From: Maritimibacter dapengensis
GTDB taxonomy: Bacteria; Pseudomonadota; Alphaproteobacteria; Rhodobacterales; Rhodobacteraceae
DNA: 64,000 nucleotides
Direction of reading: 5' to 3'
Assembly (NCBI RefSeq): GCF_019218265.1
Contig: NZ_JAHUZE010000001.1
Span: 558,001 to 622,000, forward strand
Shown: positions 10,349 through 55,249 of the stretch, piece by piece
How positions within the stretch are numbered: the stretch's first letter is position 1
Layout: the number at the start of each line of letters is the position of its first letter
Position numbers and translations under genes: made by a program
The notes under the pieces: model-generated
What the model was told of the DNA's origin: nothing
What the model saw: only the letters and a program-made list of their open reading frames with translations
Database searches by the model: none

Positions 10349-13116
10349 TGTTTGCGCTCGGTCCCATAGGCTTCACCGCGCCGTGGCTTCTGGCAGCGCT
10401 GATCGCGTTGCCGGTGCTCTGGGTGATCCTGAGGGCCATTCCGCCCGCGCCGATCCGCCGGGCGTTTCCCGGTGTCGCGCTGCTTCTGGGGCTCGAGGAC
10501 GAGGACAGCGAGGCGGACCGCACGCCGTGGTGGCTGCTTTTGCTCAGGATGATCGCCATTGCCGCGATGATCCTTGGCTTTGCCGGCCCGGTGCTGAACC
10601 CCGACCCCGCGCCGGTCGGGTCCGGGCCGCTGCTCGTCGTGGTCGATGACGGATACGGCGCGGCACAGGATTGGCGGGCGCGGATCGATGCGGCTTCGCG
10701 CCGGGTCGAAGCGGCGGGGGCTGCTGGCCGCCGCGTGGCGGTCGTCGCGACGTCGGACCTGCCCGCGGAAGGTGGTTTGCCGCTGCGGTCCGCGTCCGAC
10801 GCGGAGGCGCGTCTGGATGCGCTGCTGCCGCAGCCATGGGCCGTGAACCATGGTGCGGTCGCGGATTGGGTCGAAGGGCTGGACGCGGACGGTTTCGAAA
10901 CGCTTTGGGTGTCGGACGGGTTGGCGACGGAAACGCGCGGGGAGCTGGCCGCCGCGCTGCAATCGCGCGGCTCGGTGTCGGTGATGGAGCCGCCCGCCGC
11001 GCGGCTGGGCCTTGCGCCCGCGCGGATCGAGGACGGCATGATGGTGCTCACCGCCACGCGGTCGCGCAGCGAAGGCGCGCAGGAGATCGACGTGACCGGG
11101 CAGGGGCCTGACCCCTCGGGGGTCGAACGGGAACTGGCGCGCGCCACGCTGACCTTCGACGCAGGCGCATCCGAGACCGAGTTGTCCGTGTCGCTGCCGC
11201 CCGAAGTGCGCAACCGGATCGGGCGGTTCCAGATCGAGGGCGTGCGCTCGGCGGCCGCGCTGACGCTGGCCGATGATACGCTGCGCCGGCGCAAGGTCGC
11301 GCTGATCGGGGGCGACAGCGAAGAGGCGTTGCAGCTTCTGTCCCCGCTTCATTACCTGCGCGAAGCTTTGGAGCCGACCGCCGAGGTCATGGAAGGCACG
11401 TTGGGCGATCTCGTTCAGGCGAGCCCGGATGTCATCATCCTCGCCGATGTCGCTGCCCTCGCGCCGTCCGACAAGGAACGGCTGGAGGAATGGGTCGCGG
11501 AAGGGGGGCTTCTCCTGCGTTTTGCCGGGCCACGGCTGGCCGCTGCCGATACCGGGCGCGCCGAGGCCGATCCGCTGCTTCCGGTGCGGCTGCGCGTCGG
11601 CGGGCGTGACGTGGGCGGCGCGATGTCGTGGGGCGAACCGCGCGGGTTGGCCCCGTTCGAGGAGGATTCGCCGTTCTATGGCCTCGCGATCCCGGAGGAT
11701 GTGGAAGTGACGAGCCAGGTGCTCGCCGAACCCGGACCCGACCTTGCGGACCGCACGATCGCCGCGCTCGCCGACGGCACGCCGCTCGTCACGCGCAAGG
11801 CGTTGGCGGATGGGCAGGTGGTGCTGGTGCATGTCTCGGCCAATGCGGAATGGTCCACGCTGCCGCTTTCGGGCCTGTTCGTGCAGATGCTCGAGCGGCT
11901 CGCGGTGTCGACCCGCACGGGCGGACCTGCGGAAGCAGAGTTGGAGGGCACGACATGGGTGCCGGAAACCCTGCTCGACGGGTACGGAACGCTCGACAGC
12001 GCGGGCGACCGCCCCGGCATTCCCGGCGAACGGCTGACCCAGCCAGTCGGTCCTGACCTGCCGCCTGGTCTGTATGCCTCCGGCGATCAGCGCCATGCGG
12101 TCAACGTGCTGGCGCGAGGCGATGGTCTCAGCCCTGCGGTCTGGCCCGCTGCGCTCACGCCGGAATGGGCCGGTGATCGCGAGGAAGTGGACCTCGCCGG
12201 CTGGCTTTTGCTGCTCGCGCTCGCGGCGCTTGCCATCGACGTGATCGCGTCGCTGGCCTTGTCGGGCCGTTTGACCGGGCAGCGCGCAGGCAAGGCGGCT
12301 GCGGTTCTGCTGGCGACCGCTCTGATCGCGCCGGATCGGGCGCAGGCGCAGGACGACGAACAGACGCTCGCCGAGATGGCGGGGCAGGTGACGCTGGCCT
12401 ATGTCGAAACCGGATCGCCCCGGATCGACGACGTATCCGAAGCGGGGCTTCTGGGTCTCGGACAACAGCTATTCGCGCGGACTTCGGTGGAACCGGCCCA
12501 GCCAGTGGCCGTGAGCATCGAGACCGACGATCTGTCGGTCTATCCACTGATCTACTGGCCCGTGACCGAGGATCAGGCCGCTCCGACGTCGGATGCTTAC
12601 GCCAAGCTCAACGCTTATCTGCGCGGTGGTGGGATGATCGTCTTCGACACCCGCGACGGGGACGTGGCAGGGTTCGGATCGGGAGCGACGGTGGAGGGCA
12701 ACCGGTTGCGTGCGCTGGCCCGACCGCTCGATGTGCCGCCACTCGAACCCGTGCCGAACGACCATGTGCTGACGCGCACCTTCTACCTGCTCGCCGATTT
12801 CCCCGGGCGATACGCGGGGCAGGCGGTCTGGGTCGAAGCCAGTCCGCCGGACGCCGAACGTGCCGAGGGGATGCCGTTTCGCAACCTCAATGACGGGGTG
12901 ACGCCGGTCATCATCGGCGGCAACGACTGGGCCGGAGCCTGGGCGGTGAACGATGACGGATCGCCGATGTTTCCGGTCGGGCGAGGCTTTGCAGGCGAGC
13001 GGCAGCGCGAGATGGCCTATCGTTTCGGCGTGAATCTCGTGATGCATGTCCTCACGGGCAATTACAAATCCGATCAGGTCCACGTGCCTGCGCTTCTGGA
13101 AAGGATCGGGAATTGA
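10348..13116 (+). CDS. Membrane protein with BatA N-terminal domain and C-terminal DUF4159
   Basis: Large protein of 922 residues. The N-terminus has two transmembrane helices flanking a short loop (FTAPWLLAALIALPVLWVIL and WWLLLLRMIAIAAMILGFAG), the layout of the aerotolerance-regulator BatA N-terminal domain. A long extracytoplasmic region follows. Another membrane pair lies near residues 615-665. The last third is DUF4159-like (LAYVETGSPRIDDVSEAGL, YPLIYWPVT, GGGMIVFDTRDGD), a fold related to class I glutamine amidotransferases but with no evident catalytic cysteine. The ATG at 10348 overlaps the DUF58 stop and has GGAGG upstream. Likely a structural or sensory component of the MoxR system. 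Confidence 0.85.
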   Translation: MFALGPIGFTAPWLLAALIALPVLWVILRAIPPAPIRRAFPGVALLLGLEDEDSEADRTPWWLLLLRMIAIAAMILGFAGPVLNPDPAPVGSGPLLVVVDDGYGAAQDWRARIDAASRRVEAAGAAGRRVAVVATSDLPAEGGLPLRSASDAEARLDALLPQPWAVNHGAVADWVEGLDADGFETLWVSDGLATETRGELAAALQSRGSVSVMEPPAARLGLAPARIEDGMMVLTATRSRSEGAQEIDVTGQGPDPSGVERELARATLTFDAGASETELSVSLPPEVRNRIGRFQIEGVRSAAALTLADDTLRRRKVALIGGDSEEALQLLSPLHYLREALEPTAEVMEGTLGDLVQASPDVIILADVAALAPSDKERLEEWVAEGGLLLRFAGPRLAAADTGRAEADPLLPVRLRVGGRDVGGAMSWGEPRGLAPFEEDSPFYGLAIPEDVEVTSQVLAEPGPDLADRTIAALADGTPLVTRKALADGQVVLVHVSANAEWSTLPLSGLFVQMLERLAVSTRTGGPAEAELEGTTWVPETLLDGYGTLDSAGDRPGIPGERLTQPVGPDLPPGLYASGDQRHAVNVLARGDGLSPAVWPAALTPEWAGDREEVDLAGWLLLLALAALAIDVIASLALSGRLTGQRAGKAAAVLLATALIAPDRAQAQDDEQTLAEMAGQVTLAYVETGSPRIDDVSEAGLLGLGQQLFARTSVEPAQPVAVSIETDDLSVYPLIYWPVTEDQAAPTSDAYAKLNAYLRGGGMIVFDTRDGDVAGFGSGATVEGNRLRALARPLDVPPLEPVPNDHVLTRTFYLLADFPGRYAGQAVWVEASPPDAERAEGMPFRNLNDGVTPVIIGGNDWAGAWAVNDDGSPMFPVGRGFAGERQREMAYRFGVNLVMHVLTGNYKSDQVHVPALLERIGN

Positions 13117-27820: not shown

Positions 27821-30800
27821 ATGTCTTTCGCGTCTCCTCGATTCATCCACCTTCGTGTCCACACCGAATACTCGCTTCTCGAAGGCGCGGTGCCGGTCAA
27901 GAAACTGTCCGGTCTGTGCGAAGCGATGGAGATGCCTGCCGTCGCGATGACGGACACGAACAACATGTTCGCGGCGTTGGAATTCAGCGTCACCGCGAGC
28001 GGAGCGGGCGTGCAGCCGATCATCGGGTGTCAGGTCGATGTGGCCTTCCACGAGCCGGACCCGGGGGAACAGGCCAAGCCTGCCGCCGCCGTCGTGCTGC
28101 TTGCCCAGACCGAGCGCGGCTACGAGAACCTCATGAAGCTCAATTCCTGCCTCTATCTCGACAAGCATGGGGCGCTGCCGAGCGTGACGCTGGCGGAATT
28201 GGAGCAATATTCGGAGGGGCTGATCTGCCTTACCGGTGGGGCCGAAGGTCCGGTGGGCCAGTGGCTTCAGACCGGCAACCGGGCCAAGGCGCAGGGCCTC
28301 ATGGAGTTTTTCAAGCGCGTCTACGACGACCGGCTCTATGTCGAGTTGCAGCGCCATCCGGGCGAGGGCGGCGCGCTTCCCGAGGCCGAGGCGAAGACCG
28401 AGCGCGGCTTCGTGGAACTGGCCTATGCGATGGACATTCCGCTGGTCGCGACCAATGACGTCTATTTCCCGAAGACCGAGCTTTACGAGGCGCATGACGC
28501 GCTGATCTGTATCTCGGAAGGAGCTTATGTCGATCAGCAGGAGCCGCGCCGGAGGCTGACACCGCAACATTACTTCAAGTCGCCGCAGGAAATGGCGACG
28601 CTGTTCGCGGACCTGCCGGAGGCGTTGGAGAACACCGTCGAGATCGCGAAGCGCTGCGCGTTCATGGCCTATCGCCGTGACCCGATCCTGCCGAAATTCG
28701 CGGATGACGAGGTGGACGAGCTTCGCCGTCAGGCGAAGGAAGGGTTGGAGGCGCGGCTCGCGGTCATTCCGCATGCCGCGCCGGTCGAGGAATACGAGGC
28801 ACGGCTGGAGTTCGAGCTGGGCATCATCGAGGGGATGGGCTTTCCCGGCTACTTCCTGATCGTTGCGGACTTCATCAAATGGTCCAAGGACAACGGTATT
28901 CCCATCGGGCCGGGCCGGGGGTCGGGTGCCGGTTCGCTGGTCGCCTATGCGCTGACCATCACGGACCTCGACCCGCTGCGCTACAGTCTTCTGTTCGAGC
29001 GGTTCCTGAACCCGGAACGTGTGTCCATGCCCGACTTCGACATCGACTTCTGCATGGACCGGCGGGAAGAGACGATCCGCTATGTGCAGGAGAAATACGG
29101 GCGCGACAAAGTGGGACAGATCATCACCTTCGGTGCGCTTCTGTCAAAGGCTGCGGTGCGGGATGTGGGCCGGGTGCTTCAGATGCCCTACGGGCAGGTG
29201 GACAGGCTGTCGAAGCTGATCCCGGTCGAGGGTGTGAAGCCCGTGTCGATCCATCAGGCATTGCAGGACGAGCCGCGATTGCGGGAAGAGGCCCGCGCCG
29301 AAGAGGTCGTGGACCGGCTTCTGACGTATGCTCAGCAGGTCGAGGGTTTGCTGCGCAACGCGTCGACTCACGCGGCAGGCGTGGTGATCGGGGACCGGCC
29401 TCTCGATGCGTTGGTGCCGCTTTATCAAGACCCGAGGTCGGACATGCCGGCGACGCAATTCAACATGAAATGGGTCGAGCAGGCGGGGCTTGTGAAGTTC
29501 GACTTCCTCGGGCTGAAGACCCTGACCGTCATTCAGAACGCCATCGACCTCATTCACGGGCAGGGGCGTGACCTGCACACCGGGCCGGACGGCGCGCGGC
29601 TTTACGAGCCAGCCGAGGGCGGGGAGAACCAGATCAACCTGATCCCGCTGGACGATGAGGCAACCTACAAGCTCTATGCGAGCGCAAAGACGGTCGCGGT
29701 GTTTCAGGTGGAATCGACGGGCATGATGGACGCGCTTCGGCGCATGAAACCGACCTGTATTGAGGACATCGTCGCGCTGGTTGCGCTCTATCGTCCCGGA
29801 CCGATGGAGAACATTCCGACCTATTGCGAGGTCAAGAACGGCCAGCGCGAGATCGAGAGCGTTCACCCGCTGATCGACCATATCCTTGAGGAAACGCAGG
29901 GCATCATCGTTTACCAGGAACAGGTGATGCAGATCGCGCAGGAGATGGCGGGCTACAGCCTTGGCGGCGCCGATCTGCTCCGCCGCGCGATGGGTAAGAA
30001 GATCAAGGAGGCGATGGACGCCGAGCGCCCGAAATTCGAAAAGGGCGCTGCGGAAAAGGGCGTGGACAAGAAGAAGGCGAGCGAGGTGTTCGACCTTCTG
30101 GAAAAGTTCGCCAATTACGGATTCAACAAATCCCACGCGGCGGCCTATGCCGTGGTGAGCTACCAGACCGCATGGCTCAAGGCGAACCATCCGGTCGAGT
30201 TCATGGCGGGCGTCATGAATTGCGATATTCACCTGACCGACAAGCTGGGCGTCTATGCCGAAGAAGTGCGCCGGGGGCTCGATATCGAGATCGTGCCGCC
30301 TTGCGTCAATCGCTCGCAGGCAATGTTCAGCGTGGATCAGGGGAAAGTGGTTTACGGGCTCGGCGCGCTCAAAAACGTGGGCGTGGAGGCGATGAAGCTG
30401 ATCACCGAGGCGCGGGCGGACAAGCAGTTCGTCAACCTCTACGATTTTGCGCGGCGGGTGGATTTGAAGCGGGTCGGCAAGCGTCCGATGGAAATGCTGG
30501 CGCGGGCCGGTGCTTTCGACGTGCTGGACGCGAACCGGCGGCGGGTCTTTGAAAGCCTCGATGCGCTGGTAGGCTATTCGGCGGCGATCCACGAACAGCG
30601 GGCGAGCGCGCAGGTGTCGCTGTTTGGCGAGGCGGGCGACGATCTGCCCGAGCCGCGCCTGTCTAACGCGCCCGACTGGCTGCCGAACGAGCGGCTGGCC
30701 GAGGAGCACAAGGCGATCGGCTTCTACCTTTCGGGCCATCCGCTTGACGATTACATGCCGGCGCTCAAGCGCAAGCAGGTCGTGACGCTGGAGGAACTTG

Positions 30801-31327
30801 CCGTGAAGGCCGAGCGTGCGCCCTGTGTCGCCAAGCTCGCCGGTGCGGTGGCGGCGAAACAGGAGCGCAAGTCGAGCCGGGGCAACCGCTTTGCCTTCGT
30901 TTCCATGTCGGACCCGACCGGGCTTTACGAGGTGACGGTGTTTTCGGAGACGCTGGAAGCCTGCCGCGAATACCTTGAGCCGGGGCAGAACGTTGTGGTC
31001 ACGGTCGAGGCCAATGTCGAGAGCGAGCAGTTGAAACTGCTCGCCCGCTCTGTCGCTCCGGTGGACACGATGGTTCAGGATGCAGGCGGCATGGCGCTGC
31101 GCATCTATGTCGACGACGCGGGCGCGGTGAGCACGGTGGCCAAGCTCTTGGAGGATGCCAAAGCAACGGCAAAAGGCGTGCGCCCCGGCACGTTGAGCCT
31201 TTGCCTGATGGACCCCGGATTGCCGGGCGAGGTCGAGATGGACCTCGGCGCGGAATACCCGCTCAACCCGCAAATCAAGGGCGCTCTGAAGAGCCTGCCC
31301 GGCGTCATGGACGTGGAAGAAGTCTGA
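27821..31327 (+). CDS. dnaE: DNA polymerase III alpha subunit (replicative)
   Basis: Chromosomal replicase catalytic subunit, 1168 residues. The N-terminal PHP domain starts at FIHLRVHTEYSLLEG. The C-family polymerase catalytic acids are in PDFDIDF (about residues 404-410) and, later, KFDFLGLKTL. The helix-hairpin-helix/OB region is at the C-terminus (CVAKLAGAVAAKQERKS, FAFVSMSDPTGLYEVTVFSE). The length and PHP domain identify DnaE1 rather than DnaE2. No Shine-Dalgarno site is evident before the ATG. The upstream region contains the second GTATGG array. Confidence 0.97.
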   Translation: MSFASPRFIHLRVHTEYSLLEGAVPVKKLSGLCEAMEMPAVAMTDTNNMFAALEFSVTASGAGVQPIIGCQVDVAFHEPDPGEQAKPAAAVVLLAQTERGYENLMKLNSCLYLDKHGALPSVTLAELEQYSEGLICLTGGAEGPVGQWLQTGNRAKAQGLMEFFKRVYDDRLYVELQRHPGEGGALPEAEAKTERGFVELAYAMDIPLVATNDVYFPKTELYEAHDALICISEGAYVDQQEPRRRLTPQHYFKSPQEMATLFADLPEALENTVEIAKRCAFMAYRRDPILPKFADDEVDELRRQAKEGLEARLAVIPHAAPVEEYEARLEFELGIIEGMGFPGYFLIVADFIKWSKDNGIPIGPGRGSGAGSLVAYALTITDLDPLRYSLLFERFLNPERVSMPDFDIDFCMDRREETIRYVQEKYGRDKVGQIITFGALLSKAAVRDVGRVLQMPYGQVDRLSKLIPVEGVKPVSIHQALQDEPRLREEARAEEVVDRLLTYAQQVEGLLRNASTHAAGVVIGDRPLDALVPLYQDPRSDMPATQFNMKWVEQAGLVKFDFLGLKTLTVIQNAIDLIHGQGRDLHTGPDGARLYEPAEGGENQINLIPLDDEATYKLYASAKTVAVFQVESTGMMDALRRMKPTCIEDIVALVALYRPGPMENIPTYCEVKNGQREIESVHPLIDHILEETQGIIVYQEQVMQIAQEMAGYSLGGADLLRRAMGKKIKEAMDAERPKFEKGAAEKGVDKKKASEVFDLLEKFANYGFNKSHAAAYAVVSYQTAWLKANHPVEFMAGVMNCDIHLTDKLGVYAEEVRRGLDIEIVPPCVNRSQAMFSVDQGKVVYGLGALKNVGVEAMKLITEARADKQFVNLYDFARRVDLKRVGKRPMEMLARAGAFDVLDANRRRVFESLDALVGYSAAIHEQRASAQVSLFGEAGDDLPEPRLSNAPDWLPNERLAEEHKAIGFYLSGHPLDDYMPALKRKQVVTLEELAVKAERAPCVAKLAGAVAAKQERKSSRGNRFAFVSMSDPTGLYEVTVFSETLEACREYLEPGQNVVVTVEANVESEQLKLLARSVAPVDTMVQDAGGMALRIYVDDAGAVSTVAKLLEDAKATAKGVRPGTLSLCLMDPGLPGEVEMDLGAEYPLNPQIKGALKSLPGVMDVEEV

Positions 31328-54399: not shown

Positions 54400-54774
54400 C
54401 TAGCCCCTTGCCGGCGGGGTGGCGTTGGGTTGCGCAAGCCGGTCGAGCATCCACGAGATGTCCTCCACCTGTTCGGCAATCACATGGGCCACGCCGCTTT
54501 CACGCTGAATTTGCCCGGTGACGCGCAGCGCGCGCCCCGCGACCACGGCGCGGCGGAATTTCTCATAGATGCTGCGCCAGACGACGATGTTGGCGATGCC
54601 GGTCTCATCCTCCAGCGTGATGAACACGACGCCATGCGCCGTGCCGGGGCGTTGACGCACGAGCACGAGCCCGGCGACGGTGATGCGCGCCTTTTCCGGC
54701 GGACGGTCGAGGTCGCGATGCAGGATCGCGACCGGTGGCCGGGGCCAGGGACGGGGGGTGGAAAGAGCGGTCAT
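54400..54774 (-). CDS. Stand-alone OB-fold protein homologous to the C-terminus of error-prone polymerase DnaE2/ImuC
   Basis: 124 residues. The core (ITVAGLVLVRQRPGTAHGVV, FITLEDETGIANIVVW, then GRALRVTGQIQRESGVAHVI and AEQVEDISWML) is strongly reminiscent of the OB-fold near the C-terminus of DnaE2, a mutasome polymerase of the LexA regulon. None of the PHP or polymerase domains precedes it, and the end is shorter than in DnaE2. A perfect SOS box lies 13-27 bases upstream of the ATG, between -35- and -10-like hexamers, and no Shine-Dalgarno is seen, so the mRNA may be leaderless. It could be a remnant of a lost dnaE2 or a dedicated SOS-induced single-strand-binding protein. The frame is intact. 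Confidence 0.7.
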   Translation of the reverse strand: MTALSTPRPWPRPPVAILHRDLDRPPEKARITVAGLVLVRQRPGTAHGVVFITLEDETGIANIVVWRSIYEKFRRAVVAGRALRVTGQIQRESGVAHVIAEQVEDISWMLDRLAQPNATPPARG

Positions 54775-54780
54775 GAGATG

Positions 54781-54809
54781 AGAATAGAACATATAGGGAA
54801 CAAAACCAA
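54781..54809 (-). promoter_or_regulatory. LexA/SOS-controlled promoter of the OB-fold gene
   Basis: On the minus strand TTGGTT (-35, 54809-54804) and TATTCT (-10, 54786-54781) are 17 bases apart. The spacer contains GTTCCCTATATGTTC (54801-54787), a perfect GTTC-N7-GTTC alphaproteobacterial LexA box. LexA bound there would block the promoter. The ATG begins 6 bases after the -10, which predicts a leaderless transcript. Confidence 0.75.

Positions 54810-54910: not shown

Positions 54911-55249
<339 letters not shown>

Follow-up and report, generated by a model that had tools for sequence, protein, structure and literature searches.

A Stand-Alone OB-Fold Gene Behind a LexA-Type Box in Maritimibacter dapengensis as the Probable Missing Half of a Two-Piece DnaE2 Polymerase

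Introduction

The translesion polymerase DnaE2 (ImuC) has been described as a single chain and as part of the imuA-imuB-dnaE2 cassette, and about 77% of DnaE2 proteins carry an SRDF[H/R] motif at the C-terminus (PMC3919608). Several DnaE2 proteins without an OB domain were noted by Timinskas et al. in 2013, with neither taxa nor a stand-alone OB partner given in the accessible portion of that paper (PMC3919608). The gene considered here lies in a stretch of 64,000 nucleotides from Maritimibacter dapengensis (assembly GCF_019218265.1, contig NZ_JAHUZE010000001.1, positions 558,001 to 622,000), referred to below as the window, where a minus-strand coding sequence at 54400..54774 encodes a 124-residue OB-fold protein behind a LexA-type box. 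This gene is likely the OB domain of DnaE2 after gene fission, serving in trans as the partner of a separately encoded DnaE2 without the OB domain, hereafter the body. Judging from the sequences, the most likely arrangement is that the OB protein joins the body as a separately SOS-controlled subunit of the mutasome. OB-less DnaE2 has been in print since 2013, and the new element would be the partner in trans. Neither a stand-alone DnaE2 OB protein nor such a partner was found described in the accessible text of the literature searched, subscription papers and fitness databases being outside reach.

Several known systems invite comparison. With one-chain DnaE2 and its cassette, the system described here shares sequence, combined domain content, the clamp motif, co-occurrence with ImuB and LexA-type sites, but it consists of two genes with the OB domain supplied in trans, and the SRDF[HR] motif is absent from the 39 split bodies that were aligned. 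It also differs from the cassette in that imuA, imuB, the body and the OB gene are found on four contigs in the window's genome. The OB-less DnaE2 proteins of 2013, as far as they are described in the part of the paper available, may include bodies like the split ones reported here. The intein-split cyanobacterial polymerase described in that same portion likewise distributes a C-family polymerase over two genes, but there the halves are rejoined via an intein, whereas here an error-prone DnaE2 is concerned and no intein is present (PMC3919608). Stand-alone ImuB-C provides a precedent, being a domain of the mutasome found in addition as a small SOS-linked protein of its own, although in the accessible parts of the reports it is the C-terminus of ImuB and is described in operons with polymerase genes (PMC3765255, PMC6511836, PMC12926913). 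Eleven mutasome types are listed in the available text of one of these (PMC12926913), the main text of which makes no mention of an OB domain, an OB-fold or Rhodobacter.

A DnaE2 Polymerase Encoded in Two Pieces

The OB gene (54400..54774, minus strand, stop codon included) is an intact frame of 124 residues that begins with ATG and has no internal stops. Residues 31-106 of its product match the Pfam OB-fold family PF01336 (E=7.7e-13). The top NCBIfam match is the DnaE2 model PRK05672, at model positions 946-1041 of 1047 and with 109.8 bits, and the matches ranking below it are further DnaE-type polymerases. A profile search of the PDB with the OB family gave the alpha subunit of E. coli Pol III as the top match, a weak one (E=0.025).

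With the OB protein as the query, the window's own genome (G000, contigs C1 to C4) gave no other strong match besides the window gene. An absence of dnaE2 from this genome was considered and rejected, because an OB-only query could not show the body and a full-length query found it. When the full-length DnaE2 of a related genome (G009) was used, residues 49-1024 matched contig C3 at 60% identity and residues 1020-1127 of the same query matched the window OB gene. The frame on C3 (G000:C3:201930-204842, equivalent to L157:5928-8843 on the minus strand of L157) is intact and encodes a DnaE2 body of 971 residues. This body covers positions 6-938 of PRK05672 with 1211.5 bits against a cut-off of 939, so that body and OB protein (946-1041) together tile the model without overlap. 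Because the two match successive stretches of the model and are found on separate contigs, the DnaE2 polymerase of this genome is split in two.

The domain content of the body agrees with this division. The chain ends 17 residues past HPIALIR, the point at which one-chain DnaE2 runs on into the OB domain, and Pfam identifies catalytic, finger, HhH and weak PHP domains in it. The Pfam OB domain was not found in the body, and it was found in a one-chain DnaE2 of the family. All 39 aligned split bodies, the window genome's own included, carry the catalytic Asp triad, and 37 of them the xLPLF clamp motif; this set consists of the 30 best matches to the own body plus nine chosen and is therefore not a random sample.

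LexA-Type Operators at Separate Loci

The promoter region of the OB gene holds a perfect GTTC-N7-GTTC box, GTTCCCTATATGTTC, at 54787..54801 on the minus strand. It stands between a -35-like hexamer, TTGGTT (54804..54809, minus strand), and a -10-like hexamer, TATTCT (54781..54786, minus strand), and the 17-nt spacer between these hexamers is made up of TT followed by the box (54801-54787). The number of such boxes in the 64-kb window is at chance level (2 found versus 2.05 expected by shuffling), and the box counts as evidence because it is conserved across loci. The second perfect match in the window, at 12745-12759 on the minus strand, is a side observation within a total that equals the chance expectation.

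Conservation was followed in two sets of loci that share some genomes. The first comprises the best 80 of 581 loci, 79 of them obtained by pattern and one (L129) added individually, and the second comprises 43 evaluable loci after one (L052), in which the OB motif was not found, was dropped. A perfect box precedes the OB gene in 80/80 loci of the first set and in 41/43 of the second. Over 1.54 million positions on both strands, the first set contains 96 perfect boxes, and 79 of these sit at the OB gene. The geometry is also constant: the distance from box to start codon is 1-3 nt in 71/79 loci, a -35 TTG is located at -18 to -16 from the box (T 96%, G 94%), and a -10 TATNTT lies within the box, with the ATG about 7 nt further on (79 loci). 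The window promoter is shifted with respect to this pattern, the box filling the spacer, and its -10 is still six bases upstream of the ATG. Since the positions of -35 and -10 put the start of transcription at about the A of the ATG, the OB mRNA is probably leaderless. The original prediction, which had described a stand-alone 124-residue OB protein related to DnaE2 with a perfect box between TTGGTT and TATTCT, agrees with the PF01336 match, with the match to the C-terminal part of PRK05672 and with the box both as seen in the window and as conserved across loci.

Operators of the same type occur at the other genes. Upstream of the own lexA (L274 2256-2281, on G000:C2) are two overlapping boxes that share a half-site, GTTC-N7-GTTC-N7-GTTC, so that the operator in the OB promoter is of the same type as that of lexA itself. 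The own imuB is preceded by GAACATAATGTGAAC and the own imuA by GAACATTTGGCGAAC. All components of the cassette are present in this genome, namely an ImuB with an IMS domain, an ImuA homologue (E=4.4e-15, with a match to NF033429 that is below its cut-off), the body and the OB protein, and they are not contiguous: imuA is on C2, imuB on C4, the body on C3 and the OB gene on C1. Near the start of 38/39 split bodies there is a LexA-type site (GAAC-N7-GAA[CT] or GTTC-N7-GTTC), 11 of these sites being perfect, and for one-chain dnaE2 the count is 3/14 (G277, G011, G067). A further perfect LexA box in the own genome (L276, G000:C2:675780-675797) is separated from the following ATG by two bases, again a probably leaderless geometry, and the gene behind it resembles, by eye, a radical-SAM repair-type protein.

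Distribution in the Rhodobacteraceae

The family was surveyed in 246 genomes, about one per genus and at least 90% complete. The OB classification rests on the best 146 of 218 matching genomes and that of the body on the 111 best rows with 218 genomes matching; listed body rows at about 58-62% identity and with frames of at least about 1070 aa were left out as the one-chain type. Up to three candidates per genome were scored for the body, up to six for ImuB and up to 12 in the class-wide search, and further copies may be missed. Among the matches listed, an OB match in a frame of less than 500 aa was found in 112/246 genomes, a body without an adjacent OB domain in 108/246, and both together in 104/246 genomes belonging to 103 genera. 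All of these 104 genomes also have an ImuB match. In the first 61 genomes, a count that excludes short-frame fragments located at the ends of contigs (G016, G028), a short OB protein was found in 18, including all eight of the window's genus. OB gene and body are on one contig in 16 genomes and are close only in G208, with 1.2 kb between the matches; in the others they are 0.2-4 Mb apart.

Class-wide, 171/337 genomes were matched, and beyond the family the frames are mostly of about 1000 aa or more among the matches listed. Carriers of the short gene, as judged from the best 80 of 581 loci, are Rhodobacteraceae sensu lato, including Ruegeria, Roseovarius, Salipiger, Roseivivax, Shimia, Marivita, Planktomarina, Dinoroseobacter and others. 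Among the matches listed there are nine non-family frames shorter than 700 aa, in addition to that of G513 described next. Five of them start within 700 bp of the low-coordinate end of a contig (G313, G503, G451, G582, G504); the other four are in G309, G585, G393 and G423. One candidate for a stand-alone OB gene outside the family, a 183-aa frame in G513, was rejected as a broken-frame DnaE2 C-terminus ending in SRDFH. The short gene, of Rhodobacteraceae type, is also present in L084 (CP059262.1), a record that bears the Firmicute name Exiguobacterium profundum, probably through mislabelling.

In some genomes the split and one-chain forms occur together. The chromosome of Dinoroseobacter shibae (G065) carries a split body (C1:99840-102758), an OB gene (C1:2893899-2894240) and imuB (C1:3400275), and its one-chain DnaE2 (C4:60283-63501) is on a 126,304-bp replicon, in the same position as in NC_009957.1 of strain DFL 12. 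A plasmid cassette of the imuA-imuB-dnaE2 type in this species corresponds to Dshi_3995-3998 in the accessible part of an earlier report (PMC9426580). In G005, a split body in pieces on two contigs is present together with a full dnaE2 and a short OB gene.

Conserved Ends and the Origin of the Split

Both halves have acquired characteristic ends. The largest difference between stand-alone and one-chain OB domains is at the start, where W-P-R-P-P replaces the linker, and a W-PP start is present in 76/79 stand-alone OB proteins of the 80-locus set. An LTP-type C-terminal end occurs in 36/39 split bodies versus 0/15 one-chain proteins, and the SRDF[HR] motif at the C-terminus in 0/39 versus 15/15. 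Four split bodies (L169, L175, L183, L204) have an HPR...F end resembling the tail of one-chain DnaE2 and give the impression that the OB domain was excised from within the chain.

In a tree of 54 bodies, those that are split cluster, with three changes between the two states versus 13.3 by shuffling; the OB tree is poorly resolved and, with two changes, similar to that of the bodies. G208 is a possible intermediate of the split: its OB gene lies about 0.95 kb behind the body and has its own box, and the protein still ends in HPRDQAKRLFPSRDFH (SRDFH). Between the two genes is an opposite-strand frame (L189, 4855-5800) that resembles a dimethylargininase by eye and may be a mark of the gene-splitting event. 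The one-chain DnaE2 proteins of G011 and G277 stand beside the split clade in the tree and already have a LexA-type site of their own. This suggests an order in which the cassette would have been scattered, dnaE2 would have gained its own operator, and the OB domain would then have broken off, moved beside a ferredoxin gene and lost the SRDFH tail.

That neighbour, a divergent 2Fe-2S ferredoxin gene (54926..55249, plus strand, PF00111), begins at position 54926, on the opposite strand and 152 nt away from the ATG of the OB gene, as originally predicted. A ferredoxin motif is present within 2 kb of the OB gene in 75/79 loci of the 80-locus set, which makes it a conserved flank outside the proposed mechanism. 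The window also carries the replicative DnaE1 gene (27821-31327, plus strand, 1168 aa), with about 23 kb between it and the OB gene.

Alternative Explanations

An alternative possibility, rather unlikely but the strongest of the rivals, is that a freed OB domain has taken up an SOS job of its own, either like a single-stranded-DNA-binding protein or in association with DnaE1 or the clamp, and that the DnaE2 body works without it. In line with this, no split body was found in G081, which retains the OB gene and ImuB and otherwise has only DnaE1, and G240 retains the OB gene with only a 316-aa remnant of the body and, in addition, a different full-length DnaE2. Conversely, the OB gene was not found in 4/108 genomes with a split body (G074, G094, G178, G195), all drafts of about 100-490 contigs. 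Against such an independent role, a split body is present in 104 of the 112 genomes with a short-frame OB gene among the matches listed, and the other eight reduce to G081 and G240: four (G016, G119, G174, G193) are fragments of one-chain DnaE2 at the edges of contigs, the body of G175 is present as pieces on two contigs at 69-83% identity, and that of G091 as a single piece (residues 1-350, 59%) at the end of a contig. Moreover, almost every residue that is invariant in the stand-alone OB proteins (RQRPG, LEDE, N, W and others) is shared by one-chain DnaE2.

The exceptions just named also weigh against a two-piece polymerase, as they show that the partnership of OB protein and body is not absolute, and several further points fall on the same side. 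A perfect box before the OB gene is missing at L021 and L051 of the second set, no LexA-type site was found near the start of the split body of G111, and 27 of the 38 body sites read GAAC-N7-GAAT and depart from the perfect repeat by one base. The SRDF[HR] motif is gone from the split bodies, and the set of 39 was not drawn at random. Some DnaE3 proteins are OB-less according to the accessible text of PMC3919608, and the body might likewise work without an OB domain. The distances of OB proteins and bodies are correlated across 34 genomes (r=0.81, Mantel p=0.0005), as shared descent by itself would lead one to expect. In the approximately unbiased (AU) test, from which the full-length DnaE2 of G240, one-chain in the body tree, was left out, placing the split bodies in one clade lowers the log-likelihood by 25 units relative to the free tree (p=0.084), and with G208 left aside p is 0.52; judged from these trees, a single fission event is neither shown nor excluded.

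The view that the OB gene is a relic of a collapsed dnaE2, of which the promoter and the last domain were kept, is very improbable. It would fit the best matches of the OB protein, which are DnaE2 and other DnaE-type polymerases, as well as the body remnant in G240. Decay is nevertheless rejected by the ratio of nonsynonymous to synonymous substitution rates (dN/dS) of the OB gene, with a median of 0.12 (28 pairs, eight congeneric genomes, 297 nt) that indicates purifying selection, and by the intact body with its catalytic residues in the same genome; the conserved promoter and the occurrence in about a hundred genera likewise speak against it. The original prediction had offered such a collapse as one of two readings, and the intact 971-residue body elsewhere in the genome contradicts it, while its argument that an intact frame and operator tell against simple decay is borne out by the dN/dS and the conserved promoter. 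Its other reading, a dedicated small SOS protein kept in the lineage, holds in that the protein is conserved and SOS-boxed and is accompanied by a split body in the 104 genomes given above, but the protein is not an orphan, as an intact body ends just before the OB domain. Homologues are not limited to full-length DnaE2, which had been named as a refuting outcome, short proteins being present in many genera. The proposal that a short protein kept beside a full dnaE2 would point to a dedicated function has a divided answer: such genomes exist (G065, G005, G240), but G065 and G005 also have a split body and G240 a body remnant. The least credible alternative, that protein trans-splicing reunites the halves in the way that the accessible text reports for the intein-split cyanobacterial DnaE (PMC3919608), is rejected because by inspection the own gene ends are too short for intein halves, with 17 residues after HPIALIR in the body and nine before the conserved W in the OB protein.

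A Proposed Two-Piece Mutasome Polymerase

The OB domain of C-family polymerases binds the single-stranded template. In a DnaE2 polymerase assembled from two pieces, DNA damage would relieve repression by LexA, and ImuA, ImuB and both halves of DnaE2 would be produced from four separate loci. The OB protein would then dock on the body with no covalent link, perhaps via the new N-terminal WPRPP of the one and the new C-terminal LTP end of the other; the pairing of these two ends is a guess. Once docked, it would restore the contact with the single-stranded template that is thought to come from the OB domain in one-chain DnaE2. Contacts between DnaE2 and ImuB have been modelled on the PHP and HhH regions, according to the part of the report available (PMC12926913). 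Because these regions stay on the body, the body should reach the mutasome without the OB protein, which would add the template contact. It is reasonably likely that the result is a two-piece error-prone polymerase in which a small, LexA-controlled subunit of 124 residues could switch template binding and mutagenic synthesis independently of the body.

If this is true, it would explain why some DnaE2 proteins appear truncated, and surveys that score such dnaE2 genes as OB-less may have overlooked the partner gene. It would also amount to a natural experiment on OB function in a C-family polymerase, in which the OB domain can be removed, titrated or swapped with the catalytic chain untouched. 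D. shibae offers one model species that holds both a split chromosomal and a one-chain plasmid DnaE2, and G081 and G240 are useful for asking whether the OB protein has a job of its own. Ultimately, a DnaE2 polymerase in two pieces would mean that the SOS mutasome has an extra subunit in a large and ecologically important bacterial family.
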